Source of the DNA: Secundilactobacillus similis DSM 23365 = JCM 2765
GTDB taxonomy: Bacteria > Bacillota > Bacilli > Lactobacillales > Lactobacillaceae
Length of the DNA stretch: 36,300 nt
Direction: 5' to 3'
Assembly: GCF_001311075.1 (NCBI RefSeq)
Contig: NZ_BBAD01000027.1
Coordinates: forward strand, 1 to 36,300
A program made the position numbers and the translations under genes. Below the pieces are notes generated by a model that made no database searches, was not told where the DNA came from, and saw nothing but the letters and a program-made list of their open reading frames with translations. Below, in pieces: positions 7,210 to 36,300 of the stretch (the stretch's first letter is position 1; every line of letters starts with the position of its first letter).

Positions 7210-8514
7210 TTGAAAGTTAAAAACCCCGAAAAAAAGCAACAACTCCAGCTCTTTTTGAAGGAGTTAGTCACGTTTGCGCTGCTGTTTGCTGCCCTTGGGC
7301 TAGTGGTCTATTTCTTCTTTTACCAGTCCGTTTATCGCGATATCAATTCAGGATTTACCGGGCAAAAACAACGTATTTTGCAAAACGTGCCGCAGCCGAA
7401 GTGGAATCACTTACGGGGCACTCAAACTAAGAACACCGTCATGCCAACCAAGGATGGGCCGTTTCGAGCGGACATCGTGGTGTTTAACAGTAAGGGTAAA
7501 ATCATGAACCAGGCGATGCTTGGGGAACGGGATTATAGTTTACTGAAGAAGACCAAGTTGAACGTGAACGATTTGGATAAAGTTCAGGAGCTGACGTTGT
7601 CTTCAGATGACGTTACCAGTCACTTCCGGACACTATTGATCAAGGTCCCCGCATCAAACTTAAACCCAATGTACGCCGGGCGTTATGTACTGATCATGGA
7701 GAACGTGGACGCGGACTTATTGGCGTTGAATAGTTTCCGAAATGCGCTGTTGGTCACGTTGATCATCTTCTGGATTTTAGCGATTGCGATTGCGTACCTG
7801 CTATCGCGGTCGAGTATGAAGCCGATTATTACGTCTTGGCGAAAACAGCGGGATTTTAGCGCCAACGCCGCGCATGAGTTGCGGACGCCGCTGACGGTGA
7901 TTCAAAACCAACTGGAGTATTTACTGACGAAGCCAAAATCCCGGGTGATGGACGAAATTGACGAAGTGGCCACGGCGCTGGATGAAGTTAACCATATGCA
8001 GACGTTGACTAACCGCTTGCTGTTACTGGCACGGTCGGATTCAAACGTCATTCAAATTAATCCGGCAGAGGTTGATTTGCAGCAGTGGCTGACGCAGGTC
8101 ACCAAACCGTACCAAGAAATCGCGATGAGCCAGCAAAAGTCCTTCCAATCCAGTATTAAGGTGGCAGGTAAGGGCAAGCTGGACGCCGATTTGATTCGTC
8201 AGTTGATCACCATTTTGATGGATAATGCGATCAAATATACGCCGGAGCACGGCACCGTTAGCATTAAAGCCACTAAGGTGCACGACAACCTCCAATTAGA
8301 GGTGGCGGATACTGGTGAAGGTATCGCGGACGAAGATAAGACTAAAGTGTTCGACCGTTTCTACAGAACGGATAAATCAAGAAATTCGAAAACCGGCGGC
8401 AATGGGCTGGGGTTAGCGATTGCCCACTGGATCGTCGGTCAGCATAAGGGCAAGCTTTATGTGAGAGATAATCATCCGCATGGGGCGGTGTTTGTGGTTA
8501 GTATTCCGTTGTAG
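7210..8514 (+). CDS. Sensor histidine kinase
   Basis: A 434-residue membrane sensor kinase. TM1 is at about 20-40 and TM2 at about 178-198, with an extracytoplasmic sensor domain of about 135 residues between them. The H-box FSANAAHELRTPL has His222 as phosphoacceptor. The N-box LMDNAIKYTP, a DTGEGI G1 box, the F-box RFYRTDKSR and GNGLGLAIAHWIV follow. It starts at TTG 7210, supported by GGAGG at 7199-7203 six bases upstream and by one-base spacing from the regulator stop. It phosphorylates the adjacent regulator. The signal is unknown. Its TAG stop is the first part of the structured repeat that follows. Confidence 0.93.
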   Translation: MKVKNPEKKQQLQLFLKELVTFALLFAALGLVVYFFFYQSVYRDINSGFTGQKQRILQNVPQPKWNHLRGTQTKNTVMPTKDGPFRADIVVFNSKGKIMNQAMLGERDYSLLKKTKLNVNDLDKVQELTLSSDDVTSHFRTLLIKVPASNLNPMYAGRYVLIMENVDADLLALNSFRNALLVTLIIFWILAIAIAYLLSRSSMKPIITSWRKQRDFSANAAHELRTPLTVIQNQLEYLLTKPKSRVMDEIDEVATALDEVNHMQTLTNRLLLLARSDSNVIQINPAEVDLQQWLTQVTKPYQEIAMSQQKSFQSSIKVAGKGKLDADLIRQLITILMDNAIKYTPEHGTVSIKATKVHDNLQLEVADTGEGIADEDKTKVFDRFYRTDKSRNSKTGGNGLGLAIAHWIVGQHKGKLYVRDNHPHGAVFVVSIPL

Positions 8515-8639
8515 AGCGCAAAAAACGCGGTTAGGACCCAGAATATAAGGCAGAAGAACAGGGACTCCTGGGCTTGGGAGTCCCTGTTCTTCTGCCTTAT
8601 ATGGCCGGGTCCTGCGTTTTTTTGCGCGTTTAGGCTACA
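8512..8639 (+). repeat. Stop-codon-adjacent hairpin repeat, copy 1
   Basis: It starts at the kinase stop codon (TAGAGCGC). The outer stem pairs GCGC, an A run and CGC (8516-8528) with GCG, a T run and GCGC (8614-8627). The inner stem is a perfect 26 bp: 8543-8568 pairs with 8577-8602. The loop is TGGGCTTG (8569-8576). It ends with GCGTTTAGGCTA. AGGACCCAGAATATAAG on the left and CTTATATGGCCGGGTCCT on the right also frame the copy at 18113, but the stem core differs in sequence and still pairs perfectly. It is the only terminator-like structure after the kinase gene. Confidence 0.85.
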
Positions 8640-8923
8640 TAACAGATGTGAGGTTTCGGAAAATTAACCATGAAAAAAACGTTAAGCATCGGGGGACATC
8701 CTTACCAATATAACAGAGATAGTCTGAACTATTCTCATATATACAGCTATACCGCCCCCAGCATATTAGCCAATTAACGTCCAATTCCTCCAACGCGATC
8801 TCCAAAACCAAAAAATTCCCTAAAATCCCACCATAATAATTGACCTCACTCCAAAAAATCAGTAGTGTAGTAGCGATAAGAAAACGCGCCGAACCACCAT
8901 GGCACACTAGAGGAGGCGCACTA
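8640..8923. other. Gene-less AT-rich gap
   Basis: No convincing gene, promoter or stem structure was recognised between the hairpin repeat and the second matrixin. GAGGAGGCG (8910-8918) is the ribosome site of the next gene. Confidence 0.5.
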
Positions 8924-9612
8924 ATGCGCAAACGAACGTGGTTAACTTGGGCGGTTGCCCTATTGGTTCTGGCATTTGTGCCACTAACAATCGATGGCAA
9001 ACCAGCGCCAGTTAACTTTAAAACTGAATTAACGAAATTAGCCGACCGGTATTTACCAAACTACGATGCACAACAATCGACGAGCAGCACGCAGAAGCGA
9101 GAAACGTCGTCGGCTGATCAAACGCCAATTGAAAACATTGTACAGGGGAAAACGTTGAAGAAGACTTACTACTACCACTTTGCTAGCGATGTTTCATCGT
9201 CCGCTCAGGTAGCGTTTGAAGCCGCAGTTGCGACGTATAACGCTACTGGACTTGTGAAGTTGGTGGCGGGGAACGCTACGGATAAGCAAAATTCAATTAC
9301 CTTCTTTGTTTACGAAAAGCAGATGAGTAGCGCTAACACCCAGCAGGGGATGATTGAGTCTGGTCATGGAGGCCCAAAGATCATTCAACAAACTGGCTGG
9401 GGCGCCTATACGGTCAACCACGCCAGAGCGGGGCTCAACGTGGCTATCCACAACAGGCCATCAAGCAATCGGTGGCAACTCACGAACTGGGACACGCACT
9501 GGGATTGGATCATAGCACGAGTAAGCTATCAGTCATGTATCCAGTCGACCAGAGCCGAACAACTCTATCGACGGCGGATCTAAATGCACTAAAGGCCATC
9601 TACAATGATTAG
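8924..9612 (+). CDS. Second secreted matrixin-like metalloprotease (one frameshift in this sequence)
   Basis: It starts at ATG 8924 with GAGGAGGCG upstream. There is a signal peptide or N-terminal anchor (residues about 6-24) and a Ser/Thr/Gln-rich linker. One base is missing near 9452 (in CCACAACAGG). Restoring it gives SVATHELGHALGLDHSTSKLSV and MYPVDQ, i.e. HExxHxxGxxH with the Met-turn, ending at TAG 9610-9612 with about 229 residues. Without the repair the protein loses its zinc site. The frame beyond the break is clean and keeps all catalytic residues, which argues for sequence error rather than decay. The channel gene starts 12 bases later. Confidence 0.75.
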
Positions 9613-9624
9613 TGGGGCGGTAAA

Positions 9625-10353
9625 ATGACACAAACTAAACGGGTGATTGGGTACCACATTTTAATCACGATCCTGGTCTTGGCCTCGTCAGTTTTGGCAC
9701 TGTTATTGCTGTGCCACGTACCAGTCGGTCCAATTGGGCATGCCATCAACACGGGACTATGGTTGTTCTTTGTTGCCGACTACTTCATCCGGTGGGCGAT
9801 CACCAAGAACCGAAAGTGGTTTTTAATTGAAAATGCGTTTGATTTACTGGGCATTATCCCCATGCACCCAGCATTTGCGCTCTTTCGGTTAGGCCGACTG
9901 GTGCAGTATATTCGAGCGCACCACTTATTCTGGCACCTTGGACTCTCGGGGAAGTGGACGAAAAATTTTCACCGGTTCGTCTATGACACCGGGTTTATTT
10001 ACCTGTTTACCATCAGTGTCGGCATCATCTGCATTAGTGCCTGGCTGTTTTCAATCGTTGAACACCAAACGCTATCCCAGTCAATGTGGTGGGCGGTCAC
10101 AACGGCCACAACGGTTGGTTACGGTGATGATTCACCGAAAACGGCTTGGGGCAAAATGATTGCGACTGCCTTGATGTTAGGTGGCGTTGGCTTTATCGGG
10201 TTGCTGACGAGTACGATCACCGAATTCTTCACTGATCGAACCGGTGCTGCGGATGAACAGCAACAGCAACATGATGCGTTGATGAAACAGCTGGCGCAGC
10301 TGACTAGCGAGGTTGATCGATTGTCGAAGCAGGTTGATAAGCTAAAGAAGTAG
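9625..10353 (+). CDS. Potassium-channel-like membrane protein
   Basis: A 242-residue protein of the voltage-gated-like ion channel superfamily. Helices are at about 10-30, 40-57, 68-88 and 120-145, then a pore loop with the selectivity filter TVGYGD (163-168) and a last helix (about 175-200). An Arg-spaced segment FRLGRLVQYIR (87-97) resembles a reduced S4 sensor. The C-terminal 40 residues are Gln-rich and predicted coiled coil (LTSEVDRLSKQVDKLKK), which may drive tetramerisation. It should conduct K+ across the membrane. It is probably co-transcribed with the matrixin before it. The stop is followed after seven bases by a large structured element. Confidence 0.88.
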   Translation: MTQTKRVIGYHILITILVLASSVLALLLLCHVPVGPIGHAINTGLWLFFVADYFIRWAITKNRKWFLIENAFDLLGIIPMHPAFALFRLGRLVQYIRAHHLFWHLGLSGKWTKNFHRFVYDTGFIYLFTISVGIICISAWLFSIVEHQTLSQSMWWAVTTATTVGYGDDSPKTAWGKMIATALMLGGVGFIGLLTSTITEFFTDRTGAADEQQQQHDALMKQLAQLTSEVDRLSKQVDKLKK

Positions 10354-10360
10354 CGGGTTA

Positions 10361-11153
10361 CGCTTGTGTCCAGCGTAAGCATATTGCGGTTTAGTTTGTG
10401 AAGTGCGATGATTTGCTTGCGCTGACGATTCCGGTCAGCGACTAGGTTCCTGCTGTGGGGCCGGTCTGAGCCGAAGAGCGGTCTCAGACCTCAAATGTAA
10501 GCCTCGCCAAACCCCGTGCGAGTCTTCAATTTGTCCCCGATAATTGGCGGTTGTCGGAAGGACACCAACAACCACCAATCATCGCGACACAGCATCTACC
10601 TAGCCGCTGACCGGAATCTTACATTGGTCCAATTCGGCACTATTGTAGACCATCTCAAGTGCTTAACTGGTCGTCATGCTACAGTATGACAGCGATTGAT
10701 GTTAACTCGGTAAACAGCACAATCGGTCAGTAGTTGTCATTTTCGTGATGAACAAGTCTAGCCTGAACATTGATTCAACTCGCTTGAACGTATTGCTGAC
10801 CCGACGTCGTTACGTGGCCATTCAACACTTGCTGAGATGCTTGCAGTTGTCAGCGTGCGACAGTTTAACCCTTCATGATAAATTTTCGAGAGTGCGGTAA
10901 TCGATGCCGACAGCCCGCAAACAAGAGGTCGGTCAGAAAATTGGGCTCAGCCGTGAAATTTCACTTAGCTGGTGAATTTCCAGCTTAGTGAAAGGCCGAA
11001 TTCTGAGACGTGTTTTCCCGGCTCAGAATCGTGCCCACGGCGTTCCAGCCCAAATTTTCTGACCGACCGGTTGTGCCCACAATATCACCCACGATTAACG
11101 CGCCGACGAAGCCGAGTTTCACAAGCTCTGCACACTTACGCTGGACACAAACG
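10361..11153. repeat. Complete structured non-coding element with inverted ends, about 793 bp
   Basis: The left end CGCTTGTGTCCAGCGTAAGC (10361-10380) plus AGTTTGTGAA (10393-10402) is inverted at the right end as TTCACAAGCT (11118-11127) plus CTTACGCTGGACACAAACG (11135-11153). Left fold 10427-10618: the outer arm starting GATTCCGGTCAGCG (10427) pairs with its complement ending at 10618. Branches are 10463-10490 and 10538-10584; the latter is about 20 bp with loop AAGGACA, i.e. TGTCCTT on the minus strand. Right fold 10927-11068: 21-bp arms around a hairpin 10959-10993 (loop TGAATTT) and a hairpin 11000-11039. No coding frame is convincing. It sits 7 bases after the channel stop codon. The right part matches 1-473. 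Confidence 0.75.
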
Positions 11154-11173
11154 ACAACAAAAAACAACAGCAA

Positions 11174-11211
11174 AAAACGTCTCCTCAACATAACTGCTGA
11201 GGAGGCGTTTT
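11174..11211 (-). terminator. Terminator of the sugar symporter gene
   Basis: AAAACGTCTCCTCA (11174-11187) pairs with TGAGGAGGCGTTTT (11198-11211), with one G·T. It lies 45 bases after the minus-strand stop and just outside the right end of the 793-bp element. Confidence 0.8.
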
Positions 11212-11256
11212 GGCAATGTAGAAAAGCGATATTAAGAGAGAATCAGGAACGCTAGA

Positions 11257-12626
11257 TTAATGTGAGGTAACGGTGTTTTCCGCTTCGTTGTCTTTTTCAC
11301 GAAGGGTAGCTTCAATTTCTTCCAATGACCGGTTCCGAGTTTCGAAGACGAACTTGTGAACGAACCAGATGGAGATGAAGCACAAAACACCATACCCGAT
11401 GAACAAACTACCAGTACCGAAGAAGTCAAGTAATGATGGGAAAGTAAGGGAAACAACCATGTTAGCTGCCCAGTTGATAACTGAAGCAAATGAGTTCCCT
11501 AACCCACGAATGTTAAGTGGGAAGACTTCACCAATCATGACCCACATTACGGGACCCCAAGTAGCGGAGAAGAAGGCGATGTAAATCGTCAAGGCGATAA
11601 CACTGATGATAGCGGCAACGTGTGACCCACCGGAGAACTTCATCCCAAAGCTCATGACGAAGAGGGAAATACCCATCCCGATGGCCCCGCCAATCAACAT
11701 CTTGGTCCGGTCGATCTTATCCATTATAGCAACGGCAACCGCAGTAACGATCACGTTAAAGATCCCGATCCCGATGTGGGCAAGCAAGGCTGCGGAAACC
11801 CCGAAACCAACGTCAGTAAAGATGGTTGGTGCGTAGTAGAGAACGGTGTTACACCCCATGACTTGTTGGAAGATGGCTAAGCCGATCCCAATAATCAATG
11901 AAGGACGAACGAACTTGCTAAAGAGTTCGCTCCAGCCACCACTCTTAATGTTAGCTTGTTGCTTGATTTGAGCTAATTCAGCATCAACGGCTTCTTTATT
12001 ATCATTGTTCATGTTCATCAAAACGGCGTTGGCTTCATCAGTCCGGCCGGATTTGACTAAGAAACGAGGACTTTCTGGGAGAATCAAGCCACCGAAGAAG
12101 AGGATTGCGGCTGGAATAGCGGCGAACCCTAACATCCAACGCCAGCCAGTATACATGCCAGAGAAGCTGTAATTGGTGATGTAGGCGACCAAGATCCCAG
12201 TCATAACCATCAGCTGGAACAAACTTGAAACGGTCCCACGCTTGTCAGCGGGTGCCAATTCAGCTAAGTAAGTTGGAATCAAAGCGGAAGCAGCCCCAAC
12301 GGCCATCCCTAAGATGATCCGTGAAACGATCAAAGTCCAGAATTCTGGTGAGAATGCTGAGCCAATGGCCCCAACGAAGAAAATAATAGCAGAAAGCAAA
12401 AGTAGTTTTCGACGACCATACTTATCAGAAGATGGTCCAATAATGGCAGCCCCTAAAACGGCCCCCAACAAGACGGCACTAACGACCCAACCTTGTTGCC
12501 ATGAGCCAAGTGAAGTTGTTTTTGAATAAACAGGATGGCGCCAGAGATAACCCCGGTATCATAACCGAAAAGCAACCCACCAAGGGCGCCGAAGAAGTAA
12601 ATAAAACCAGTCGACACTTTTCGCAT
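11257..12626 (-). CDS. Sugar:H+ symporter, MFS sugar porter family (one frameshift)
   Basis: After restoring one base near 12505 (GGG read as GG in the minus-strand codons for [10 protein letters not shown]) this is a 456-residue 12-TM sugar porter. It starts at ATG 12626 behind AAAGGGG. Family motifs visible are [11 protein letters not shown] near the N-terminus, SDKYGRRK (loop 2-3), [12 protein letters not shown] (after TM6), [18 protein letters not shown] (TM7, sugar-binding QQ) and [10 protein letters not shown]. It resembles AraE/XylT-type pentose or hexose proton symporters; the substrate cannot be fixed from sequence. A cre-like site lies upstream. The frameshift would otherwise separate TM1 from the rest. 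Confidence 0.85.
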
Positions 12627-12772
12627 AAAACGAATCCCCTTTGTAGTGTATTTTTAAGGTGCTAATAACAAGCTGCATGTAACAGTTGTAACTAAGTTGG
12701 TACATTAGAACAACCAACGTGGGTTAGTATAACGCTTATTTTTGAAAAAAGAAAGCGATTTCCAAAAGAAAT

Positions 12773-12787
12773 AGTTACCGCTTACAA
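12773..12787 (-). promoter_or_regulatory. cre-like CcpA site upstream of the sugar symporter
   Basis: TTGTAAGCGGTAACT read on the minus strand fits the cre pattern WTGNAANCGNWNNCW at every fixed position. It lies about 150 bp upstream of the symporter start, suggesting carbon catabolite repression. A weaker cre-like word is at about 12750-12764. Confidence 0.55.
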
Positions 12788-12983
12788 AGCAATAGTGGCC
12801 GAAATAGCCGGCATTACGGTGAAAAGGGTCGCTTAAGGTAGTTGAAAAAACTTTTCAGCACTAGAAAATTTTGTGAAAGTAAGCACAGACACAACCATAG
12901 TTTTTAATTATCATTCGATTAATTCTGAAAATAGTTGGTGAATCAAAGTGTTTTAAAGTCATTTTGGATAAGGGCAACAAAAA

Positions 12984-13012
12984 AGCACCGCGATATCATT
13001 AATCGCGGTGCT
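12984..13012 (-). terminator. Terminator of the Apf-like gene
   Basis: Perfect 11-bp stem AGCACCGCGAT (12984-12994)/ATCGCGGTGCT (13002-13012), followed on the minus strand by TTTTTT. Confidence 0.85.
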
Positions 13013-13088
13013 ATTATCAGTTACCAAGGGAACTTGTGTACAAGACCACTTATGTAAGTAAGGGTGCGCCAGCGCGTCAGCCCTCAGT

Positions 13089-13493: not shown

Positions 13494-13520
13494 ATTTTTT
13501 ATAATCCCCTTGTTGTTCAC

Positions 13521-13835: not shown

Positions 13836-13884
13836 AAAAAACGCATCCCCGAGTACCACAGTTTGGTATTCGGGGATGCGTTTA
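13836..13884 (-). terminator. Terminator of the Ohr gene
   Basis: AAACGCATCCCCGA (from 13839) pairs with TCGGGGATGCGTTT (to 13883), with a further TACCA/TGGTA inner stem. It follows the minus-strand stop at 13912. Confidence 0.85.
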
Positions 13885-17456: not shown

Positions 17457-18115
17457 TGGTCCACATGAACCTCTTTGAACAGCTAATGTACTACTATCAA
17501 CATAACGGCCTGTACGTACTGTCACAGTTTAGCCGGCACTTCTTGATTTCAGTGTATGGTGTGCTGTTGGCAGCCATTGTGGGGATTCCGATTGGGATCT
17601 TCATTGCCCACCACAGCAAGCTGAGCGGGACCGTGATCGGAATTGCCAACGTGATTCAAACTATCCCATCACTGGCGATGTTGTCGATCATTATGATTGG
17701 CCTAGGTTTAGGCGTGAACACTGTGATTGTAACGGTGTTCCTGTACGCGCTGTTGCCGATTATTAAAAATACCGACACAGGCATGCGCAACGTTGACCCC
17801 AGCATCCTTGATTCAGGCAAGGGAATGGGGATGACGCGCCTGCAGTTACTTAGATTAGTGGAAATTCCACTATCGTTGTCCGTCATTATGGCGGGGCTCC
17901 GAAATGCCTTAGTCTTGGCGATTGGGATCACCGCTATCGGGACCTTCGTTGGTGCTGGTGGTCTTGGGGATATCATTATCCGTGGGACTAACGCGACTAA
18001 CGGGAGTGCCATCATTCTCGCCGGTGCGTTGCCAACGGCGTTGATGGCGATTATCCTGGACGTAGTCTTGGCTTGGGTCGAGAAGCGAGTGGATCCAGCT
18101 AAGGGTGCGAACTAG
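17456..18115 (+). CDS. opuCD: Osmoprotectant ABC transporter permease
   Basis: 219 residues with about six helices. The EAA loop is DSGKGMGMTRLQLLRLVEIPLS (about 121-142). It resembles OpuCB but has a longer N-terminus. It is the last gene of the opuC operon. Its TAG stop (18113-18115) is the first part of a hairpin repeat, which is the only terminator-like structure found. Confidence 0.92.
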
Positions 18116-18280
18116 AGAGCGTGACAAAACTCGTTTAGGTCCCAGAATATAAGCAGAAATAACCGTAGATTCCTGGTTTTGGAATCTACGGTTATTTCTG
18201 CTTATATGGCCGGGACCTGAGTTTTGGCGCGCGCCCCAGCGGAGCTTGGAAGCCTATTTGGCGTTTAGGCTAGGTAATAG
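18113..18280 (+). repeat. Stop-codon-adjacent hairpin repeat, copy 2
   Basis: It starts at the opuCD stop (TAGAGAGCG). The inner stem is a perfect 27 bp, 18147-18173 with 18181-18207, loop TGGTTTT (18174-18180). The outer stem AAAACTC...AGGTCCC (18126-18143) pairs with GGGACCTGAGTTTT (18213-18226). The conserved ends CCCAGAATATAAG and CTTATATGGCCGGG are shared with copy 1, but the middle of the stem is different and still perfectly paired. A GGCGCGCGCC palindrome follows, then the family end GCGTTTAGGCTAGGTAATAG (18261-18280). Confidence 0.85.
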
Positions 18281-18375
18281 TCTTGAAATCGAGTGGAATT
18301 TTTAACAAATTTTGAGTTAAGAAATTAGTTCGATGTTTGTCAATATAGATTTTTTCCAGTCATAATTTTGATTGA

Positions 18376-19011: not shown

Positions 19012-19276
19012 ATGAAATTCGGATGGGAATAGTACCTGAGGATGACATCACACAGCGACCTGTAGATAGTGCGAGGCAGGAGATCGTCGAATCAGAGAAT
19101 GAGCCCAGATTGAAGGTTGGCTGTTCACGCAACTGACCCGCAAGGATGCGTTACGATCCCAGACATCAACAGGTGTCGTTGAGGCAAGTCATGCGAATGA
19201 TTTGCAAAGATGGGTGGTAACACGAAGCGTTCGTCCCATACTAGCTTATATGCTGGTATGGGGTGAACGCTTTTTT
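19012..19276 (+). ncRNA. T-box riboswitch, Met specifier
   Basis: A tRNA-sensing leader of metY. Stem I closes near TTCGGATGGG (19018-19027) with CCCAGATTGAA (19104-19114). An AGTA S-turn (19031-19034) lies on the 5' side, and the likely specifier ATG (19099-19101) followed by A lies on the 3' side. The T-box sequence GGGTGGTAACACG is at 19212-19224. The terminator arms GCGTTCGTCCCATAC (from 19227) and GTATGGGGTGAACGC (to 19270) are followed by TTTTTT. Uncharged tRNA-Met should allow readthrough into metY. Confidence 0.9.
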
Positions 19277-19330: not shown

Positions 19331-20611
19331 ATGACTGAAAACAACGAATTACATTTTGAAACGAAACAAGTCCATGCGGGTCAAGTTGTCGATGAAACTG
19401 GTTCACGGGCAGTGCCAATTTACCAAACGACTTCATACGTCTTCAAGGACGCCGCTCAAGCTGCTGGCCGGTTTGCTTTAACGGATGCCGGTAACATTTA
19501 CACCCGTTTGACGAACCCAACTACCGATGTTTTGGAAAAGCGGGTTGCCGCTCTTGAAAATGGGACTGCCGGCGTTGCTTTAGCAACCGGTGCCGCTGCC
19601 GTTACCGCCGCTGTTCAAAACGTGGCCAACGCTGGTGACAACATCGTATCTGCCAGCACCCTTTACGGTGGGACTTACGACTTATTCAGCGTTACCTTAC
19701 CAAAGTTAGGCATTACCACTACGTTCGTTGATCCAGACGACCCTGAAAACTTCGCCAAGGCCATCGACGAAAACACCAAGGCACTTTACATCGAAACCAT
19801 TGGGAACCCTGGGATTAACATCATTGACATCGAAGCCGTTGCTAAGATTGCCCATGATAACGGCATTATCTTAATTGCTGATAACACCTTTGGCACCCCA
19901 TACCTGATCCAACCACTTGATCACGGTGTTGACGTGGTTGTTCACTCAGCAACGAAGTTCATCGGCGGTCACGGGACCTCAATGGGTGGTGTCATCGTTG
20001 AAAACGGCAAGTTCGATTACGCCGCTTCTGGCAAATACCCAGACTTCACCACACCAGATGCTACTTACAACGGCATCGTTTGGAACGACATTAACCCAGC
20101 TGCCTTTACCACAAAGGTTCGGGCCCAAACATTACGTGATACTGGTGCTGCTATCAGCCCATTCAACTCATTCTTGTTGATTCAAGGTCTTGAATCATTA
20201 TCACTTCGGGTTGAACGCCACGTGGCTAACACCCAAAAGATCACTGAATTCTTGAACAACCATCCAAAGGTGGCTTGGGTCAACTACCCATCATTGAAGG
20301 ACAGCAAGTACCATGATTTAGCTGCCAAGTACTTCCCAAAGGGCACTGGTTCAATCTTCACCTTGGGCTTAAAGGGCGGCGAAAAAGCCGGCAAGCAATT
20401 AACTGAAAAGACGGAATTGTTCTCACTGTTGGCCAACGTTGGTGATGCTAAGTCATTGATCATTCACCCAGCATCAACCACTCACGCCCAATTGAACGAC
20501 GAACAATTGAAGGAAACGGGCATTACCCCAGATTTGATCCGGATCTCAGTTGGGATTGAAAATGCTGATGATTTGATTGCTGATTTGAGTCAAGCGTTGG
20601 ATCAAATCTAG
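19331..20611 (+). CDS. metY: O-acetylhomoserine aminocarboxypropyltransferase (homocysteine/cysteine synthase)
   Basis: A 426-residue PLP enzyme of the Cys/Met metabolism family, cytoplasmic. It converts O-acetylhomoserine plus sulfide to homocysteine. Visible are TKQVHAGQ at the N-terminus, [20 protein letters not shown], the PLP-phosphate and ring-binding segments ([19 protein letters not shown]) and the Schiff-base lysine in [14 protein letters not shown] (about residue 209). The length and the [15 protein letters not shown] insertion fit MetY rather than MetB/MetC. AAAGGAG precedes the start. It is controlled by the Met T-box upstream. Its TAG stop begins a hairpin repeat. Confidence 0.92.
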
Positions 20612-20730
20612 AGTGCGGAGAGAAGCGGTTAAAGGGCGGCGTGTAAGGCGACTCGGGTGAAAGCCTGGGTTTGGGCTTTTACCCGAGTCGCCTTACACAT
20701 AGCCCTTTGCTTCTCGGAGCACGTTTCGGC
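20609..20730 (+). repeat. Stop-codon-adjacent hairpin repeat, copy 3
   Basis: It starts at the metY stop (TAGAGTGCG). The inner stem is 25 bp, 20641-20665 with 20674-20698, with one G·T; loop TGGGTTTG (20666-20673). Outer pairing: GTGC, GGA, GAGAAGC (20613-20626) with GCTTCTC, GGA, GCAC (20709-20722), leaving a symmetric GGA/GGA internal loop. It ends with CGTTTCGGC. Its outer sequences match the inverted copy at 36104-36238, but the inner stems are unrelated. Confidence 0.85.
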
Positions 20731-21090
20731 GCGGTTGCCAGAACGAACTACCGTAACCAATCTCACAAATGGATTGTTAAGCGCAAAGCCTAATCCAAGT
20801 GGCGCCGAAATCAAAGTAGTAGCCATGCACGTCGTCAGTACCACTCAAAGTAACGCAACGTGTCGTATAAAATAGTAATTTAGCACCACCCAAGTCAACA
20901 CAACAAGGACCAACCAGTCCCCCAACGGCCTGTTATCCAAGTTCTGATCCACCAGTCCCCACGTCCACCAACCCTAGGCACTGACCTTGACTAGGCTTGA
21001 TCGATGTGACGACCGTTAATGAAGTGCAACTTTCTCGAACTAAAGTCTCAACATAAGAAGTAACTCCTAAAATAGATAGTGAATTCATCC
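20731..21090. other. Gene-less gap between metY repeat and AraC gene
   Basis: About 360 bases without a supportable gene. TTTCGGCGC (20726-20734) and GCGCCGAAA (20802-20810) form a 9-bp inverted pair. Otherwise nothing was recognised; the stretch from 20880 is C/A-rich and looks degenerate. Confidence 0.5.
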
Positions 21091-29528: not shown

Positions 29529-30923
29529 ATGAGTTCAAACACAGATCATAATGTTGAAGCGGCTCAGGCGATGTTAGCTAATGATAAATTACCGTTTCAC
29601 CGAAAATTAACGTACGGTTTTACGGATATGGCAGGGAACCTGCTGTATACACTGGTTGGTTCTTATATGCTTTACTTCTTCACCAACGTATTCGGGTTAG
29701 ATGTCGGGACCGCCGGGGCGCTGCTCCTGTTAGGCCGATTTATCGATGCATTGGGTGCACCCGTCATGGGGGTCTTGGTTGACCATACCCATAGTAAATA
29801 CGGGAAGAATCGACCGTGGTTCCTATGGATGGCACTACCGTTCACCATTTCCATCTGGTTACTGTTCACTACACCATCACTCAGTGCCACGATGAAAGTG
29901 GTTTATGCTGGTGCAATGTACATTATTGCCGAATTGGCTTACACGGCATTATCAACACCGATCACATCAGTTTTGCCTAACCTATCGGCTAACTCTGATG
30001 AACGGACGTCCGCTAACTCGATTCGGATGGTGTTAGGAAACGTTGGGAACTTCTTTGCGGTTACGTTTGTTATGCCACTGGCATCGTTCTTGGGACACGG
30101 GAATGACCGTCGTGGTTGGTCATTAGCAGTTGGTCTTTACGCAATCATTGCGTTTATTATCCTAATGATCGCGTTCTTGGATATGCGTGAAAAGAACATT
30201 GGTGAAGAAAAAATTATCACGATTCGCGAAAGTTTAAAGGCAACGAAACGTAACTGGCCTTGGGTGTTAATTGTGTTGGCCAACTTGCTACTGTGGACGG
30301 CTTACTCAGCCCGGAACGCAGCTTTGCCATATTACTTCCAATATAACTTGAACGACAAAGGGCTAATTTCAGTCTTCAATGGTTTTTCAATCATTCAAAT
30401 TATCGGGATGGCGTCAGTGCCATTCGTTGTAAAATACCTGCATAAGTGGGGTACTACGATTTTGATGCTTGGCATGACGATGGTTGGTCAAGTATGGATC
30501 GGATTTGCTGGGACTAACGTCACTTCTGGTCTTATCGGTTGGTGTCTCGCATGTATCGGTTCTGGGTCAGCCATGACCATGTTCTTCTCCATGGTCGGAG
30601 ATACGGTTGATTATGGTGAATGGAAGACTGGTATTCGGGCTAATGGCTTCTTAACGGCGATGGGCGCCTCCTTCTGTATCCAAATGGGTTCAGGGATCGG
30701 TTCCTTTATTGCAGCTCGAATTCTCGCGGCGTTTGGGTTTACCGCTGCTAAGGCAACCCAATCGGCTGGTAGTTTGTCAGCAATCAACTTTACCTTTATT
30801 TGGGTACCTGTTTTAATCTATGCCTTGAGTGCAATTTGCATGGTCTTCTACCGTAAGTGGGAGAAACATGAACCGATTGTGACTGAAGAATTGGCTGAAA
30901 AACGGGCAGCGAGTGAAGCCTAA
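29529..30923 (+). CDS. GPH-family glycoside:cation symporter (XylP-like), copy 2
   Basis: 464 residues from ATG 29529, with GGGAGGG upstream. Same 12-helix plan and signatures as copy 1. The two proteins differ at only a few dozen positions, mostly conservative and near the termini, while the DNA differs at many third codon positions. It probably serves the GH31 enzyme encoded upstream. It is last in the GH31/small-protein/GPH operon and is followed by a terminator. Confidence 0.9.
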   Translation: MSSNTDHNVEAAQAMLANDKLPFHRKLTYGFTDMAGNLLYTLVGSYMLYFFTNVFGLDVGTAGALLLLGRFIDALGAPVMGVLVDHTHSKYGKNRPWFLWMALPFTISIWLLFTTPSLSATMKVVYAGAMYIIAELAYTALSTPITSVLPNLSANSDERTSANSIRMVLGNVGNFFAVTFVMPLASFLGHGNDRRGWSLAVGLYAIIAFIILMIAFLDMREKNIGEEKIITIRESLKATKRNWPWVLIVLANLLLWTAYSARNAALPYYFQYNLNDKGLISVFNGFSIIQIIGMASVPFVVKYLHKWGTTILMLGMTMVGQVWIGFAGTNVTSGLIGWCLACIGSGSAMTMFFSMVGDTVDYGEWKTGIRANGFLTAMGASFCIQMGSGIGSFIAARILAAFGFTAAKATQSAGSLSAINFTFIWVPVLIYALSAICMVFYRKWEKHEPIVTEELAEKRAASEA

Positions 30924-30958
30924 GCTTAAGAGTTAGTAATTGAATAAAAGAAACGGAG

Positions 30959-31003
30959 ATAGCATCGAGAATTCCTAATGCAGGATTCTTGATGCTATTT
31001 TTT
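30959..31003 (+). terminator. Terminator of the GH31/GPH2 operon
   Basis: ATAGCATCGAGAATTCCT pairs with AGGATTCTTGATGCTAT (two G·T/mismatch positions), followed by TTTTTT. Confidence 0.88.
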
Positions 31004-31014
31004 GTTAAAATCGA

Positions 31015-31097
31015 AACTATTTAGAAAAATATCTAAATAGTTCGACCACCATTCAGTAAACATGCTATAATCTATTTAGAAAGATATCTAAATAGAT
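31015..31097 (+). promoter_or_regulatory. Promoter flanked by twin ArsR-type operators
   Basis: Operator 1 (31015-31042): AACTATTTAG, spacer AAAAATAT, CTAAATAGTT. Operator 2 (31070-31097): ATCTATTTAG, spacer AAAGATAT, CTAAATAGAT. Both arm pairs are perfect. The -10 box TATAAT (31066-31071) abuts operator 2. The -35 region (TTCGAC, about 31041) overlaps operator 1. The arrangement predicts tight autorepression by the ArsR protein encoded downstream. Confidence 0.85.
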
Positions 31098-31110
31098 TGG
31101 CGGTGAGCAC

Positions 31111-31404
31111 ATGGCAATGAGTCAAACGTTAAAGGCGATTGCGGATCCGGTTCGACGACAAATTTTGGAACTATTAAAAACCAAACAGTATTCGGCTGGT
31201 GAAATCGCTGATCAGTTTGAGCTGACAAACGCAACGGTCTCGTATCATTTGAAGTTACTAAAAAAAGCAAATCTAATCTCTGAACATAAACAGAAAAACT
31301 ACATTTATTACGAACTAAACGCCAGTGTGTTTGAAGAGGTGCTGACGTGGATCTACGGACTAGGAATCGGGGGCGATCAGGATGATGACCAAAAGAAACG
31401 TTAG
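31111..31404 (+). CDS. ArsR-family regulator, SdpR-like
   Basis: A 97-residue winged-helix repressor. The helix-turn-helix runs from ADPVRRQILELLK through YSAGEIADQFELTNATVSYHLKLLKKANLI (about 10-55), and the wing HKQKNYIYYELN follows. No metal-binding Cys pair of classical ArsR is present; it resembles B. subtilis SdpR, the partner of SdpI. Its gene overlaps sdpI by 23 bases. Twin operators lie directly upstream, consistent with autoregulation. Confidence 0.88.
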   Translation: MAMSQTLKAIADPVRRQILELLKTKQYSAGEIADQFELTNATVSYHLKLLKKANLISEHKQKNYIYYELNASVFEEVLTWIYGLGIGGDQDDDQKKR

Positions 31405-32017
31405 GGTGTTGATAATCAGTAGTATCGTCATTTTGTTACCAATCATTTACGGGATGATGAATTATGCACAATTACCGGCTGATATGGTGACACACTGGGG
31501 TGTGAATAATCAACCGAATGGCTGGATGCCAAAGGCGTGGGCGGTCTATGGCCTACCATTCTTAATGCTGGCCTTACAGTGGTTTATTGTGATCATCTTA
31601 CGAATCAGTGCTAAGAAAACGGGTGGTGCGCCACGGTTGGAACGATTAGTTCAGTGGCTAATTCCAGTATTAACTGTGGTGCTGTACATCACAACGATTC
31701 GGGCAAATTTAGGGTTTGGCGTTGATATTCGTCGGATCGCAGTCGGCCTAGTAGGTGCCATATTTGTATTAATGGGCAACTATTTACCCACGGTGCCAGC
31801 TAATGGGAAAACTTGGGGGTACCATCCAACGACGAATCTAAAACCTGAATTACAGGCTAGGGTAAACCGGAGAATGGGGCAGGCAATGGTGATCAGTGGC
31901 TTGCTGTGCTTGTTAAGTCTGTTCTTTTCCGAAATTGTGTCGTGGCTGGCAGTGGCAATCGCAATCGTTAGTGTGATTGGCGTCTCAATTTACGGTTTGC
32001 GCTTGTCGCGGCGGTAA
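31382..32017 (+). CDS. SdpI-like immunity/signal-transducing membrane protein
   Basis: 211 residues with about six transmembrane helices. The N-terminal DUF1648 segment includes LPADMVTHWGVNNQPNGWMPKAW (about 31-53). The SdpI core in the C-terminal half has VGAIFVLMGNYLPTVPANGKTWG (about 120-142), with the GNYLP motif typical of SdpI. In B. subtilis SdpI gives immunity to the toxin SdpC and sequesters SdpR at the membrane. No toxin gene is present here, so it may protect against foreign toxins or act in envelope stress. Confidence 0.85.
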   Translation: MMTKRNVRVLIISSIVILLPIIYGMMNYAQLPADMVTHWGVNNQPNGWMPKAWAVYGLPFLMLALQWFIVIILRISAKKTGGAPRLERLVQWLIPVLTVVLYITTIRANLGFGVDIRRIAVGLVGAIFVLMGNYLPTVPANGKTWGYHPTTNLKPELQARVNRRMGQAMVISGLLCLLSLFFSEIVSWLAVAIAIVSVIGVSIYGLRLSRR

Positions 32018-32037
32018 TCAGGTAGTTGTGCACAAGT

Positions 32038-32101
32038 TGTGGATAAACTGTGGATAAGTATGTTGATAACTTATGATATTTTGTGGATAACGTGTGGATA
32101 A
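32038..32101 (+). promoter_or_regulatory. Phased DnaA-box cluster
   Basis: Four perfect TGTGGATAA boxes (complement TTATCCACA) at 32038-32046, 32049-32057, 32082-32090 and 32093-32101, plus TGTTGATAA (one mismatch) at 32061-32069. All point the same way, with start-to-start steps of 11, 12, 21 and 11 bp, i.e. roughly on one helix face. A TTGTGCACAA palindrome lies at 32026-32035. No dnaA/dnaN genes are nearby, so this is more likely an ectopic DnaA-binding site than oriC. Confidence 0.75.
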
Positions 32102-32142
32102 GCTGTGTAAAAGAAGTGAATATGATCGATTATAGTTAAACT

Positions 32143-32187
32143 AAAAATGCTTCGAAAGTCCCAAAAAGGAATTTCGAAGCCATTTTT
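32143..32187. terminator. Bidirectional terminator after greA
   Basis: AAAAATGCTTCGAAA (32143-32157) pairs with TTTCGAAGCCATTTTT (32172-32187) with one bulge. It lies 12 bases from the minus-strand greA stop. Confidence 0.85.
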
Positions 32188-32199
32188 ATTGATGGTTAC

Positions 32200-32667
32200 T
32201 CAAAGGGTAACGCGCAGCAGTTTAACCGCGTAACTCCCATTCGGCGAACTAATCGTCACCACATCATTCACAGTATGGTTTAGCAATGCCTTGCCCATCG
32301 GTGAAGCAATGGAGATCTTATTATCAGCAATGTCTGCTTCAGGCGTTCCCACGATAGCGAAAGTTTCCTCCGAACCATCGTCTTGAAAGGCCAACGTCAC
32401 CGTTTTGCCGATTTCAACCACGGCATTATCGTTAGGTTCGATGATTTTTGCGTAACGGAGTTGTTTGTCGAGAAAGCGCAAGCGGCTCTCTAAGTGGCGG
32501 AGATCCCGTTTGGCTGCGCTATAATCGGCATTTTCTGATAAATCACCCAGCGCTCGTGCGGCGACTAGCGCAGCGATTTTTGTTGGACGGTCTTGTTTTA
32601 GCGCCTCGATTTCGGCTTCAATTTTTTGGTAGCCCTGTTTGGTTACCGGGTTAAAATCTGGTTGCAT
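32200..32667 (-). CDS. greA: Transcript cleavage factor GreA family
   Basis: 155 residues from ATG 32667; the frame extends six codons to a GTG at 32685 with no ribosome site. The N-terminal coiled-coil hairpin (about 10-75) carries the acidic tip LGDLSENADYSAAK, which reaches the polymerase active centre and stimulates RNA cleavage. The C-terminal FKBP-like domain contains SPMGKALLNHTVNDVV. It lies 23 bases downstream of the nicotinamidase-like gene and is probably co-transcribed. It may be a second, non-essential Gre paralogue given this setting; that cannot be decided here. Confidence 0.88.
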   Translation of the reverse strand: MQPDFNPVTKQGYQKIEAEIEALKQDRPTKIAALVAARALGDLSENADYSAAKRDLRHLESRLRFLDKQLRYAKIIEPNDNAVVEIGKTVTLAFQDDGSEETFAIVGTPEADIADNKISIASPMGKALLNHTVNDVVTISSPNGSYAVKLLRVTL

Positions 32668-32690
32668 ACCCTCAGTTCTTTCCACAAAAA

Positions 32691-33244
32691 TTAAACGACT
32701 TGCGCACCTAACACGTGTTCAAAGTGGCCAAGTGCCCACTCCTGTCCGGCTGGCGTTAACGCGGCGACGGCGTCTTGATGGACGATGACGTTATAGTTCA
32801 GGTTGTAGGCATCAACGGCGGTGTGTAGCACACAGATGTCGGTGCAAACCCCAACCAAGTGGAGCGTATTAATATGCCGTTCGCGTAACCGAAGATCCAA
32901 GTCGGTCCCGGCAAATGCACTGTAACGCGTTTTGTCATACATGTAAACCTGCGCATCATCTTGGTGTTGCGCGAACCATGCTTTAACTGGCCATAGAATT
33001 CCCGGCCCCACGTATTGCGCACGTTGTGGGGTGGGAACAATTTACTTTCTGGATGATAGGGGTCATTGGGCGTGTGCACGTCGGTCGGTAGGATTACCCA
33101 GCTGCCATCAGCTGCAAATTGATCAGCCAACGCAATGATCGATGACTCCAGGGCCTGTCCGGCAGCGCCACACGTTAGGGCGCCGTCGTCGTGGACGAAA
33201 TCGTTTGTATAATCAATAATTAAGAGTGCTTCGTTTGCTGCCAT
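32691..33244 (-). CDS. Isochorismatase-family hydrolase, nicotinamidase-like (one frameshift)
   Basis: One A is missing near 32983 (AAAA read as AAA). Restoring it gives about 184 residues, with YGQLKAWFAQHQDD across the join. The catalytic triad of cysteine hydrolases is visible: Asp in LLIIDYTNDF (about residue 10), Lys in YDKTRYSAF and Cys in VGVCTDICVLH. The metal-site residues D/H in PTDVHTPNDPYHPES match nicotinamidase PncA. It would convert nicotinamide to nicotinate in NAD salvage. TTGGAGG precedes ATG 33244. It is followed by greA. Confidence 0.85.
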
Positions 33245-33296
33245 GTTCGAAAACCTCCAAAAGATTAGGATTCTTCGAACGGGGTGTCAAGACGGG

Positions 33297-34415
33297 TTAG
33301 TCAAACTGACGTAAAAATTGGGATAGCCTGTCAAGACCGGTTCGAAGAGTTGTCTCATCAGTACAATACCCTAACCGAAAGTGTCCTGGCAAGTCAAAAC
33401 GCTCGCCGGGAATCAAGAGGACGCCAGTTTCCTTTAGTAGGCGTAAACAGAATGGTTCCGTTGCTTCCGGAATATCCAGTTTTGGACAGGAGGTTGAGAC
33501 CGCTTGGGGTAGGACACAAGACACCCGGGGTTCATTGGCGATCCAGTCTTTCAGAATCGCTAAATTGTTCATGACCAACGCTCGGTTACGGGCAAAAATC
33601 TGGTCTCGGTGCTGCAGGATGTAAACGGCTAGTCGGTCGTTAAACACGCCGCCGCAAATCATCGTATAGTCGCGGTATTTACGGAACAAGTCACTCACTT
33701 CGTCGTTGGCTACCGTCCAACCAATGCGAACGCCGGGGAACGAGTAACTCTTTGAGAGGGAGTTAGTAGCGATGCCGCGGTCGTACAGGTCTACGATCGA
33801 GGTGAATTTTTTGGGGTCATCCAATGGTAAATACACTTCGTCCACTAAGACGTATGCGCCCACCGTTTTCGCAACTTCGACAACTTGTGATAAGAAGTCG
33901 CGGTCTAAGAGGGTCCCGGTGGGGTTATTGGCGTTATTGAGGCAAATCAGTTTGGTGTTCGGCCGAATCATCGCTTTGAGGTCGTTGATGTCGGGGTACC
34001 AGTTATCAGCTTCGTGAATCCGCCACAGGTCAACGTCGGCGCCCAAAGAGCGGGGAATATCGAAGAGTTGTTGGTAGGAAGGATATTCACTGATCACGTG
34101 GTCGCCGGGTTCGACTAATGAGAAGAGGGCGAGGTAGTTAGCGCCAGTGGCACCGTTGGTTTGTAGTACCTGAGAAGGTTTGACGTTCGCATAGTGGCTG
34201 CTGACCAGTTCTTTAAATTCAGGTGAGCCTTCGATCCAACCGTAGTTCATCTTGGTATCGTTAAGTTGTTTCGCAAATGTGTCCGGTGCGTCACCGGTTA
34301 AGTTTAAGAGGTCACTAATGGTCATCGAACTGATCGTACTTTGGGAAATATCGTAAGTTGCCGAGTTTTCCCACTGATTCAACCAGGCTTCGATGCCGAA
34401 TTCAGCTATTTGCAT
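33297..34415 (-). CDS. PLP-dependent aminotransferase, class I/II
   Basis: 372 residues, fold type I. Visible are NYGWIEGSPEFKELV and NGATGANYLALFSL near the N-terminus, CLNNANNPTGTLL (about 155-167), VDEVYLPL (Asp pairing with the PLP pyridine), the Schiff-base Lys in TNSLSKSYSFPGVRIGW (about 225), and HFRLGYC with the carboxylate-binding Arg. The substrate is unknown; this subgroup includes uncharacterised lactobacillar aminotransferases. AGGAGC precedes ATG 34415. It stands upstream of the nicotinamidase-like gene on the same strand with a 52-base gap. Confidence 0.85.
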   Translation of the reverse strand: MQIAEFGIEAWLNQWENSATYDISQSTISSMTISDLLNLTGDAPDTFAKQLNDTKMNYGWIEGSPEFKELVSSHYANVKPSQVLQTNGATGANYLALFSLVEPGDHVISEYPSYQQLFDIPRSLGADVDLWRIHEADNWYPDINDLKAMIRPNTKLICLNNANNPTGTLLDRDFLSQVVEVAKTVGAYVLVDEVYLPLDDPKKFTSIVDLYDRGIATNSLSKSYSFPGVRIGWTVANDEVSDLFRKYRDYTMICGGVFNDRLAVYILQHRDQIFARNRALVMNNLAILKDWIANEPRVSCVLPQAVSTSCPKLDIPEATEPFCLRLLKETGVLLIPGERFDLPGHFRLGYCTDETTLRTGLDRLSQFLRQFD

Positions 34416-34506
34416 GAGAGGCTCCTTTGTCGTTAATGAATTGGCTATATTGTATCAAAAATTAGGGTGAAAGGGGAATTTGGTTGATTATCGAAAATCA
34501 ATAAAA

Positions 34507-34542
34507 CGGTTACGTTGCCAACTCAAGTTAGCAACGCAACCG
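34507..34542 (-). terminator. Terminator of the MFS gene
   Basis: CGGTTACGTTGC (34507-34518) pairs with GCAACGCAACCG (34531-34542), one mismatch. On the minus strand a TTTTA tail follows. It lies 17 bases after the corrected MFS stop at 34560. Confidence 0.8.
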
Positions 34543-34559
34543 CTTGATGAAACTAACGC

Positions 34560-35752
34560 TCAAAGTGATTCGTGAGAGGTGACCTTAATTGGCTTACGCG
34601 CATTTAAGCGGTTCAACCAAATCACTAATACCATAGCTACTGCGATATAAACCGCCCCGCCCCAGCCAATCCAGTTCAAGCCAAGGTGCGTCACCACGAG
34701 GCGCCGGTAGCTGACCCCAGTGAGATTCCGAAGTTAAAGAAGATCGAGTTTAGCGATGACGCTAACACGATCGACTGCGGATAATCCTGTTCGGCCACCA
34801 TCAAGAAGTGGAGCTGAATTGGGGAGTTGAGCAGGTACATGGTGATGCCGAGGCAAAATACCACGGCAAGCGCAACCCACTGTAATCCGGTTACCAGTGG
34901 CAGAATAAACAGTAAAATTGCTTCGATCGCGTAAACCTTTGGCATGAGTTTTAAGCTCCCATGTTGTGCGATTTGGCCACTCAATTGATTGCTGACGATA
35001 GCGGTTAGGCCGTAAATGAACAGCAACAAACTCAACGACTGAGTGGAGAAGTGCAGCAGTGTCGTTAAAGTTGGCCGCAGGTAGGTATAGAAAACGTAAA
35101 TCCCGCCGGAACCAAAAAACGGTAAGGTGATGGCAACTTGAATTCGGTGATCTTTCAACAGCGCTAATTGATCGCGTAAATTACCGGTTTCTTGCGACAT
35201 TTTGTGTGGCAAGCTAAAGTACGCCAAGGCTAACGTCAAAAGACTAACAATGGTGATGGCCCAAAATGAATCTCGCCAAGTAAACGTGGTGCTGATCCAG
35301 GTCCCGATTGGCACCCCGAAAACGGAGGCGATACTAAAACCGGAAAAGACCCAAGCAATCAGCCATGGTCGCTTGTCCAACGGCGCGATTTGGTTGGCAA
35401 TCGTGATAGTGAGCGAAATAATGACTCCGGCCACTAGTGCGGTGAGAATCCGTGAAACAGTCAGCCAGAAGAAGGAGCTGGCTAAGCCACTGAAGGTATT
35501 GCTCAGAATGAAAATGACCATGAGGACCATCAGCGATTTAAAGTATGAATAGCGGCCCACAAATAGGGTGATGAATGGGGTTGAAATGGCGTAAACGAGG
35601 GCGAACACGGTGACCAGATAACCAACACTAGCCACAGGGACGTTGAACTGATGCCCCACGTCGTTGAGAATCCCCACGATAATGAATTCGTTACAGCCTA
35701 AGATAAAGGCGATCGCAACGAGGATGATAGCGCGAAATTTAAATGCGTGCAT
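34560..35752 (-). CDS. MFS drug/arabinose-type efflux transporter (one frameshift)
   Basis: One base is missing near 34702 (CCC read as CC). Restoring it gives SATGALVVTHLGLNWIGWGG and a final helix IAVAMVLVIWLNRL, ending at 34560 with about 397 residues, normal for a 12-helix DHA1 transporter. Without it, the last helix and tail are lost. Family features are GCNEFIIVGILNDV (TM1), SVGYLVTVFALVYAISTPF (TM2), RYSYFKSLMVLMV in the loop and ALVAGVIISLTITIANQIAP (TM4). It resembles AraJ/YdhP-like exporters; the substrate is unknown. AGGAAG precedes ATG 35752. Confidence 0.85.
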
Positions 35753-35965
35753 GGTAACTTCCTTTCAGCGAAAGCCAACGATATAACGGTAAGTTGGGGA
35801 TTTTATAAAGCGCTTTCGCGGAGTTAACTTTAGGATACATTATGGCGGGGATTTGGGGAACCGGTTTCGAGAAATTTTTGAAATTTAGTGTTGCGGGTGA
35901 TTAGCGTTACTTCATTAATGATTTGGGAAAATGAACCAATTAAAGTTGATAATTGAAAAAGCCCG

Positions 35966-36020
35966 TTGAGTCTAGGCCAATCGGTAGTGTACAATAAAAC
36001 AAGTAATTACATAGTAATTA
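35966..36020 (+). promoter_or_regulatory. Orphan promoter with MarR-like palindrome
   Basis: TTGAGT (35966-35971), an 18-base spacer and TACAAT (35990-35995) make a plausible promoter. TAATTAC-ATA-GTAATTA (36004-36020), a perfect 7+3+7 palindrome, covers the expected start site. Downstream, GAGTTAA (36035-36041) can pair with TTAACTC (36062-36068). Only a 20-codon frame (36052-36114) follows, and it stops inside the next repeat. No full gene is seen downstream within the window. Confidence 0.55.
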
Positions 36021-36103
36021 TTTTAGAGTAAGGTGAGTTAACCGGTATTGTATGCAGGGTTTTAACTCATGGTTATTGAAAATTTATTTAGGTTTGGTGG
36101 GTC

Positions 36104-36238
36104 ATGTTACCTAGCCGAAACGTGCTCCGAGAAGCAGAGAGCTGTGCGTGAGGCACTCGCACCACAAGTCCCAAAAACGGGGGCTTCTGGCACGAGTAAC
36201 TTACGCTCCGCTTTCTAACCGCTTTACTTCGCACTCTG
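36104..36238 (-). repeat. Hairpin repeat, copy 4 (inverted, divergent)
   Basis: Read on the minus strand it starts CAGAGTGCG and ends GCTTCTCGGAGCACGTTTCGGC followed by TAGGTAACAT, matching copy 3 at both ends and copy 2 in the last part. The inner stem is weaker: arms starting ACTCGTGCC and ending GGTGCGAGT, with several mismatches, and a T-rich loop. It lies in the leader of the orphan promoter. Confidence 0.75.
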
Positions 36239-36271
36239 TACGGAACCGTTGATATTTTTATGGCTGGGTTA

Positions 36272-36300
36272 ATGTTACCTAGCCGAAACGCATCGAGAGC
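36272..36300 (-). repeat. End of a further hairpin repeat, cut by the window edge
   Basis: ATGTTACCTAGCCGAAACG (36272-36290) is identical to 36104-36122 and is the conserved end of the family, so a second copy starts here and continues beyond the window. The two copies are in tandem, 168 bp apart. Confidence 0.65.

Follow-up and report, generated by a model that had tools for sequence, protein, structure and literature searches.

The EFAR elements of Enterococcus faecalis, reportedly characterized by Venditti et al. in 2007, are said to be modular, mostly about 170 bp in length, and to fold into two hairpins. Their empty sites are reportedly stem-loops, which are lost in most cases on insertion. 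EFAR is taken here, by assumption only, to be the same element as Efa-1. The latter is described as a 163-nt sequence present in 65 copies and forming a pair of adjacent stem-loops, in an article whose main text contains no mention of L. plantarum (PMC2267715), and EFAR is named elsewhere as a miniature inverted-repeat transposable element (MITE) of enterococci (PMC3733652). Other families include repetitive extragenic palindromic (REP) elements of 20–40 bp (PMC3733652), RUP and BOX of Streptococcus pneumoniae and Correia/NEMIS of Neisseria, which are listed as small structured intergenic repeats (PMC2267715, PMC2229807), and the L. plantarum supermotifs (LPSM; Wels et al. 2009), which are given as 800–1000 nt long and as not found in other species (PMC5643018). 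The present analysis concerns a family of long hairpins in a 36,300-nt stretch of DNA from Secundilactobacillus similis DSM 23365 = JCM 2765 (contig NZ_BBAD01000027.1 of assembly GCF_001311075.1), called the window hereafter, which is the entire contig C27 of a 3.45-Mb draft genome. The family is probably a non-autonomous mobile hairpin repeat of about 140 nt, about a third of whose copies begin at stop codons, which at twelve compared gene ends occupies the position of a relative's terminator-like hairpin and in which the folded top strand is apparently maintained. No published description of it was found in the PMC full-text literature, a scope outside which most subscription papers lie.

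Size and Structure of the Hairpin Family

CGTTTMGGCTA, the end motif, was counted 48 times in the genome and its reversed control 9 times, which together with the covariation excludes chance. Thirty copies with recognizable ends were aligned, the common structure was predicted by RNAalifold, and a covariance model (R1) was built from this alignment. The structure contains 44 pairs, 36 of which vary on both sides. All five covariation measures exceeded all 500 shuffles, with 96.6% of paired cells against 69.6% in shuffles and a covariation score of 0.757 against 0.220 (slid controls reached at most 0.155), values to be read with the caveat that the structure was derived from the same alignment and that kinship of the copies inflates such counts.

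Model R1 gave at least 149 matches in the genome among the 150 scored out of 1187 candidates. The detailed search covered 801,445 bases, namely the window, 40 stretches (mostly of larger contigs), and two small contigs with known arrays, and yielded 204 matches on both strands. From these, 116 separate copies were picked by hand after removal of double matches on the opposite strand and of a few that were weakest or cut by an edge; the 109 copies above 70 bits were used later. Their density of about 136 per Mb extrapolates to about 450–500 (~470) copies in the genome. Where both strands matched a copy above 70 bits, the opposite strand scored at least 40 bits lower, as read from the match list.

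The element opens at its 5′ end with an A and GAG or GTG. An outer stem is separated by a 4-nt bulge from a stem of 7 bp, beyond which an internal loop leads to a long inner stem whose sequence varies freely among copies. The hairpin has a CCCGGTTTTGG-type loop and a 3′ arm lacking any counterpart of the bulge, and CGTTT and about 25 nt of tail complete the element. The tail is mostly unpaired and the fold is one long hairpin with a 4-nt bulge, which reads GGTT in 60 copies, GGGT in 17, GTTT in 16, and GCTT in 8; in tandem arrays the unit recurs every 140 nt or so. Immediately ahead of the model start, 108 of the 109 copies have an A, and GAG (84 copies) or GTG (20 copies) comes next. An earlier examination of the window from its letters only, the sequence-only reading, had given the start as AGNGCG at TAG; it is better written as A before the model start followed by GAGNG.

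No family of Rfam release 15 reached its gathering score in the window, and the hairpins of 12 further loci gave only sub-threshold matches, mostly to microRNA models. SSRC10, matched in L277, was rejected as the identity of the element, the match (40 bits) being below cut-off and beside the element rather than on it. A likeness to integron attC sites, based on the GTT-type bulge and the tail, was dropped by eye, no search being made for it. The family of covarying hairpins proposed by the sequence-only reading is upheld by the many further copies, by covariation beyond that of shuffles, and by the lack of an Rfam family at cut-off.

Association with Stop Codons

The start of 36 of 106 copies lies −4 to +12 nt from the stop of a co-directional open reading frame (ORF) of at least 100 amino acids, where randomly placed starts fall 1.0 times on average and at most 7 times in 109. 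The docked stop is TAG in 30 of these 36 cases; among the long frames of this DNA, TAG closes 123 of 486 (Fisher p = 4e-12). The element itself supplies AG, with A at −1 and G at +1, so that a T of the host is alone enough for TAG. In a wider range 45/109 copies lie within 30 nt of a co-directional stop and 4/109 lie near an opposite-strand stop at the other end. In the context table, from which the 31/109 copies overlapping an ORF call are omitted, both neighbours are called for 74 copies, 13 of them antisense to both and 8 between divergent genes. A plasmid copy of L. plantarum likewise adjoins a TAG stop. The copies of the window, the stops next to them, and one separate repeat are as follows.

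8512..8514, forward strand: TAG stop of the histidine-kinase-like ORF 7210-8514, named from its translation alone
8513..8653, forward strand: copy 1, hairpin and 3′ tail; inner arms 8543-8568 and 8577-8602; 137.9 bits with the covariance model at 8514-8653
10365..11150: separate 786-nt repeat with inverted ends TTGTGTCCAGCGTAAG/CTTACGCTGGACACAA
18113..18115, forward strand: TAG stop of opuCD, adjoining copy 2
18114..18288, forward strand: copy 2; arms 18147-18173 and 18181-18207; 114.5 bits, model match 18117-18252; hairpin, then an extra module of about 30 nt (18233-18261), then the conserved tail with CGTTTAGGCTA at 18262-18272
20609..20611, forward strand: TAG stop of metY, adjoining copy 3
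20610..20748, forward strand: copy 3; arms 20631-20665 and 20674-20708, 89% complementary; GGCGCGGTTGCC-type tail; 106.2 bits, model match 20611-20748
36096..36237, reverse strand: copy 4; 112.0 bits, model match 36096-36236; upstream of ORF 34691-35752, transporter-like by translation alone
36280..36300, reverse strand: fifth copy, 3′ end only; partial match 36280-36290; cut by the contig end

All four hairpins claimed by the sequence-only reading are present, at 106–138 bits with the covariance model; the copies at 8514 and 36096 belong to the 30 model-building copies, so their own scores are not independent, and copies 2 and 3 lie outside this set. The coordinates confirm that copies 1–3 adjoin the TAG stops of the kinase-like ORF, opuCD, and metY, the leading AG of copy 1 completing the stop of the upstream frame. 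Stems of 25–27 bp had been claimed for these three copies; the arms are perfect and 26 and 27 nt long in copies 1 and 2, and 35 nt long with 89% complementarity in copy 3. The three genes had also been said to possess no other visible terminator: no separate one was detected within 300 nt 3′ of the hairpins, but the detector called a terminator-like site inside copies 1 and 2 themselves, whose 3′ arms contain T runs. Of 34 copies that were folded, copy 4 is the least stable (−47.1 kcal/mol). Inserts resembling the extra module of copy 2 were also seen in L037 and, in another form, in L096:9801.

At the end of opuCD, inspection of 13 species by eye showed an intact element no more than 8 nt from the stop in 7, remnants in 3, and none in 3. 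The MetY protein is 90–92% identical to MetY of Secundilactobacillus odoratitofui, folii, silagincola, and collinoides, which points to this genus rather than to Lactiplantibacillus. A possible T-box leader lies 5′ of metY at 19013-19241 of the window (64 bits, under the Rfam cut-off of 93).

Gene Ends with and without the Element

Syntenic stretches of three Secundilactobacillus pairs with mean identities of 80.7%, 83.0%, and 86–89% were compared. Twelve sites filled in one species and empty in the other came from two pairs (11 from G010/G013 and one from G009/G001), in which the compared species differ by 17–19%. They comprise 11 gaps without the element and a four-copy array included later, of which only the 3′ side was checked; rows with missing flanks, with the element, a remnant, or another hairpin in the partner, with copy-number differences, or with gaps of 1.6–2.1 kb were excluded. 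All 12 element-free gaps hold a hairpin of −15 kcal/mol or stronger (−21.7 at the array site). For each of the first 11 none of 20 shuffles was as stable, and 9 of the 11 are followed by at least three T in the next 8 nt. A hairpin of this strength is present at 24 of 45 control gene ends without the element, taken from G010 only (p = 0.004 against the first 11 gaps). On the filled side, from 60 nt upstream to 200 nt downstream of the element, a separate strong hairpin was found at 2 of 11 sites (p = 0.0002 for empty versus filled, 11 against 11) and none on the 3′ side of the array. At 10 of the 12 sites the element stands in the place of the terminator-like hairpin.

A plain intrinsic terminator, which was one option of the sequence-only reading, is not supported for the family, because just 10 of 109 copies have six or more T within 7 nt of the 3′ arm, though a terminator-like site is found inside the hairpin of 5/32 docked copies including copies 1 and 2 of the window.

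Strand Bias and Matching of the Arms

Inner-stem mismatches, counted in 81 of the 109 copies and read on the top strand, include 128 G·T and 10 A·C. When each was counted once per cluster and position (79 stem clusters, for which 181 copies of several genomes were offered), 110 G·T and 11 A·C remained, together with 18 GG, no CC, 22 AG/GA, 1 CT, 11 AA, and 5 TT. This G·T excess suggests that the folded top strand is apparently what is maintained, either as RNA or as single-stranded DNA. The 13 copies antisense to both neighbours have the same bias (G·T 14, A·C 0) and stability, and as the bias is independent of local orientation the pressure may act while copies are made.

Several pairs of alleles show how the arms change together. 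At the opuCD site a T-A pair of one species is a C-G pair of another (G007 versus G012), and G010 and G013 have common flanks and stem ends and differ in an 11-bp block on both arms, the other version of which is carried by a neighbouring tandem remnant; uncompensated changes, namely G·T and A·A pairs, also distinguish these two species. Plasmids L291 and L296, which belong to a group with phosphotransferase system (PTS) operons, have flanks 98.5% and 99.5% identical and element gaps 82.0% identical, in comparison with 98.7% for the element gaps of L291 and L295; such a divergent element in near-identical flanks makes it likely that the hairpin was swapped as a whole. In L297 a 28-nt arm is perfect, being the exact complement of the other, where the sibling L292 retains the internal loop of the family, and this is best read from the sequences as one arm copied from the other. 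In Lentilactobacillus diolivorans the same perfection affects the opposite arm.

The hairpin can also be lost. It is gone from L. plantarum plasmids L293 and L294, in which GAGCGCGTT is kept; because these are letters of the element, the allele reads as a deletion and not as an empty site, and the presence of GAGCGCG at both element ends makes a deletion between short repeats likely. As a separate observation, G010:192994 and G010:64022 (L237 and L231) carry hairpins of hybrid or compound make-up, part of which corresponds to the 5′ arm of another subfamily in reverse complement, so that they look as if the arms were inverted.

The sequence-only reading had left two alternatives for compensatory change, and both seem partly right: the pairing of one strand appears to be selected, according to the prevalence of G·T over A·C, and a process yielding perfect arms (L297) and hairpin swaps at the same site seems to be at work as well.

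Dispersal and Distribution

A sister copy at least 95% identical exists elsewhere for 14 of 109 copies. Of the 17 copies in the youngest subfamily, 7 start at GTGTGCGG in unrelated flanks, and 10 stand behind the left end of a larger inverted-repeat unit. The end motif of this unit, with at most one mismatch, occurs 257 times in the genome and 0 times in the control; the units are about 318 and 770–900 nt long, and several contigs begin less than 650 nt from one.

The covariance-model search of Lactobacillaceae genomes that the sequence-only reading had suggested matched 53 of 121 genomes and 19 of 40 genera at E ≤ 1e-6, the window genome included, and in an order-wide sample 11 of 148 genomes were matched, 8 of them from other families, with 1 to 20 matches each. 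The CGTTT end is kept in 18 of 23 copies from other genomes (by eye). The carriers include Lentilactobacillus diolivorans and, according to BLAST, plasmids of L. plantarum, L. rhamnosus, L. paracasei, P. acidilactici, and P. inopinatus; copy 3 and a stretch of G254 gave no plasmid match, and copy 1 gave no phage match.

The elements of L. paracasei plasmids L291 and L292 lie inside mannose-type PTS operons, that of L291 in antisense, and could alter expression between the operon genes. On the L. rhamnosus plasmid L289 a thiamine pyrophosphate (TPP) riboswitch (positions 1345-1436; 67.6 bits, cut-off 54.3) lies upstream of a terminator-like hairpin and the element.

Possible Explanations

Among the options of the sequence-only reading, a mobile element directed to stops or terminators best accounts for the numerous dispersed copies, their docking at stops, and the terminator-like hairpins of relatives at the same sites. 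Copies of such an element would be mobilised in the form of a folded single strand of DNA or RNA with the help of some enzyme, and insertion would remove the targeted terminator hairpin, after which the inserted hairpin, once transcribed, may serve as the new 3′-end structure of the mRNA. Recombination could exchange hairpins, loss could proceed between the short end repeats, and the arms may be copied by template switching. A more far-reaching version, rather doubtful at present, regards the family as a strand-specific hairpin parasite of Lactobacillales with no known transposase, which lands on a stop, gives the AG of a new TAG, displaces the terminator, and rewrites one arm from the other, diverging freely yet staying perfect.

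Several results weigh against a mobile repeat of this kind. No insertion with a target duplication was found at the two plasmid sites read, and the presence or absence of the hairpin on plasmids was rejected as an insertion test, since the hairpin-less L. plantarum allele retains GAGCGCGTT and thus reads as a deletion. Neither Y1_Tnp (16/53 genomes with the element, 17/68 without, p = 0.54) nor RVT_1 (11/53 and 16/68, p = 0.83) tracks the element, the overlaps being counted by hand; an IS200/RAYT transposase or a reverse transcriptase was accordingly dropped as the mobiliser, with only these two families compared. The comparison of terminators covers two species pairs and 12 sites, 11 of which belong to one pair, and in the window genome alone separate terminators behind docked elements (10/32, versus 97/224 at other gene ends) provide too weak a contrast to be used as evidence. 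Conservation for function would also account for the intact element that 7 of 13 species have at the opuCD stop, and source copies could have passed on the strand bias.

According to a rival opinion, the hairpin is a 3′-end RNA structure maintained by the host, either an unusual terminator or a barrier to 3′ exonucleases, and spread mainly by descent and recombination rather than by transposition. Co-directional placement at stops, the terminator-like hairpins of relatives at the same sites, the persistence after opuCD, the RNA-like mismatch bias, and the terminator-like site inside some docked copies, two of them in the window, all agree with it. It is nevertheless unlikely, though not negligible, since T-rich 3′ arms are rare, 13/74 copies are antisense to both neighbours and 8/74 lie between divergent genes, the antisense copies have the same bias and stability, copies lie inside plasmid PTS operons, and near-identical copies occur in unrelated flanks. 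In another view, the hairpin would be a passive passenger of the larger terminal-inverted-repeat element with TTGTGTCCAGCGTAAG ends, as the position of 10 of the 17 young copies behind the left end of the unit and the abundance of the end motif suggest; this is improbable, because the four window copies are outside such units and no such end was seen in the 60-nt flanks of 23 copies from other genomes, in which no dedicated search was made. Slightly less credible still is the opinion that covariation is merely a by-product of recombination and template switching with the structure itself unselected. Different hairpins in near-identical flanks and a newly perfect arm were indeed seen directly, but neutral copying of arms predicts G·T about equal to A·C instead of 110 against 11, GG 18, and CC 0, and the orientation of the copies was unambiguous.

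If the family is a mobile hairpin, many gene ends in this genome and in lactic acid bacteria of food and gut are set by it and not by a normal terminator, and 3′-end formation there would need mapping rather than prediction. The family is also a natural test of the evolution of long palindromes, in which exchange, arm-to-arm copying, and strand selection are separable at flanks 98–99% identical, and it cautions against reading base-by-base compensation into every repeat family with strong covariation.

Comparison with Known Systems

The hairpin family resembles intrinsic (Rho-independent) terminators in being a hairpin at gene ends, where relatives have a terminator-like hairpin, and differs from them in the U-run, found in only 10/109 copies, and in a far longer stem. 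With REP/RAYT systems it shares intergenic high-copy palindromes with a bulged stem, while its length of about 140 nt and the lack of association with Y1_Tnp set it apart. RUP, BOX, and Correia/NEMIS, likened to it by description only, are also small and structured with many intergenic copies. LPSM is similarly a repeated structured intergenic element of a lactobacillus; its 800–1000 nt do not agree with the tandem unit of about 140 nt, and it is rather the 786-nt repeat of the window that has a similar size, a likeness by size alone.

With regard to MITEs, no target duplication is present at the two plasmid sites read, and a larger inverted-repeat unit surrounds 10 of the 17 young copies. EFAR and the hairpin family, compared by description only, are both small non-coding palindromic repeats of Lactobacillales beside genes. 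With regard to the loss of stem-loops on insertion reported for EFAR, a strong hairpin is present here in 12/12 empty partners and no separate one at 10/12 filled sites, between species 17–19% apart. Unlike EFAR, reportedly a pair of stem-loops, the present element forms a single long hairpin that has a 4-nt bulge and is followed by a conserved, mostly unpaired tail. The family is best regarded as a probable mobile hairpin repeat occupying gene ends, broadly akin to EFAR of Enterococcus as reported, from which it is distinguished by its fold and by the sequence evidence of arm copying and exchange.

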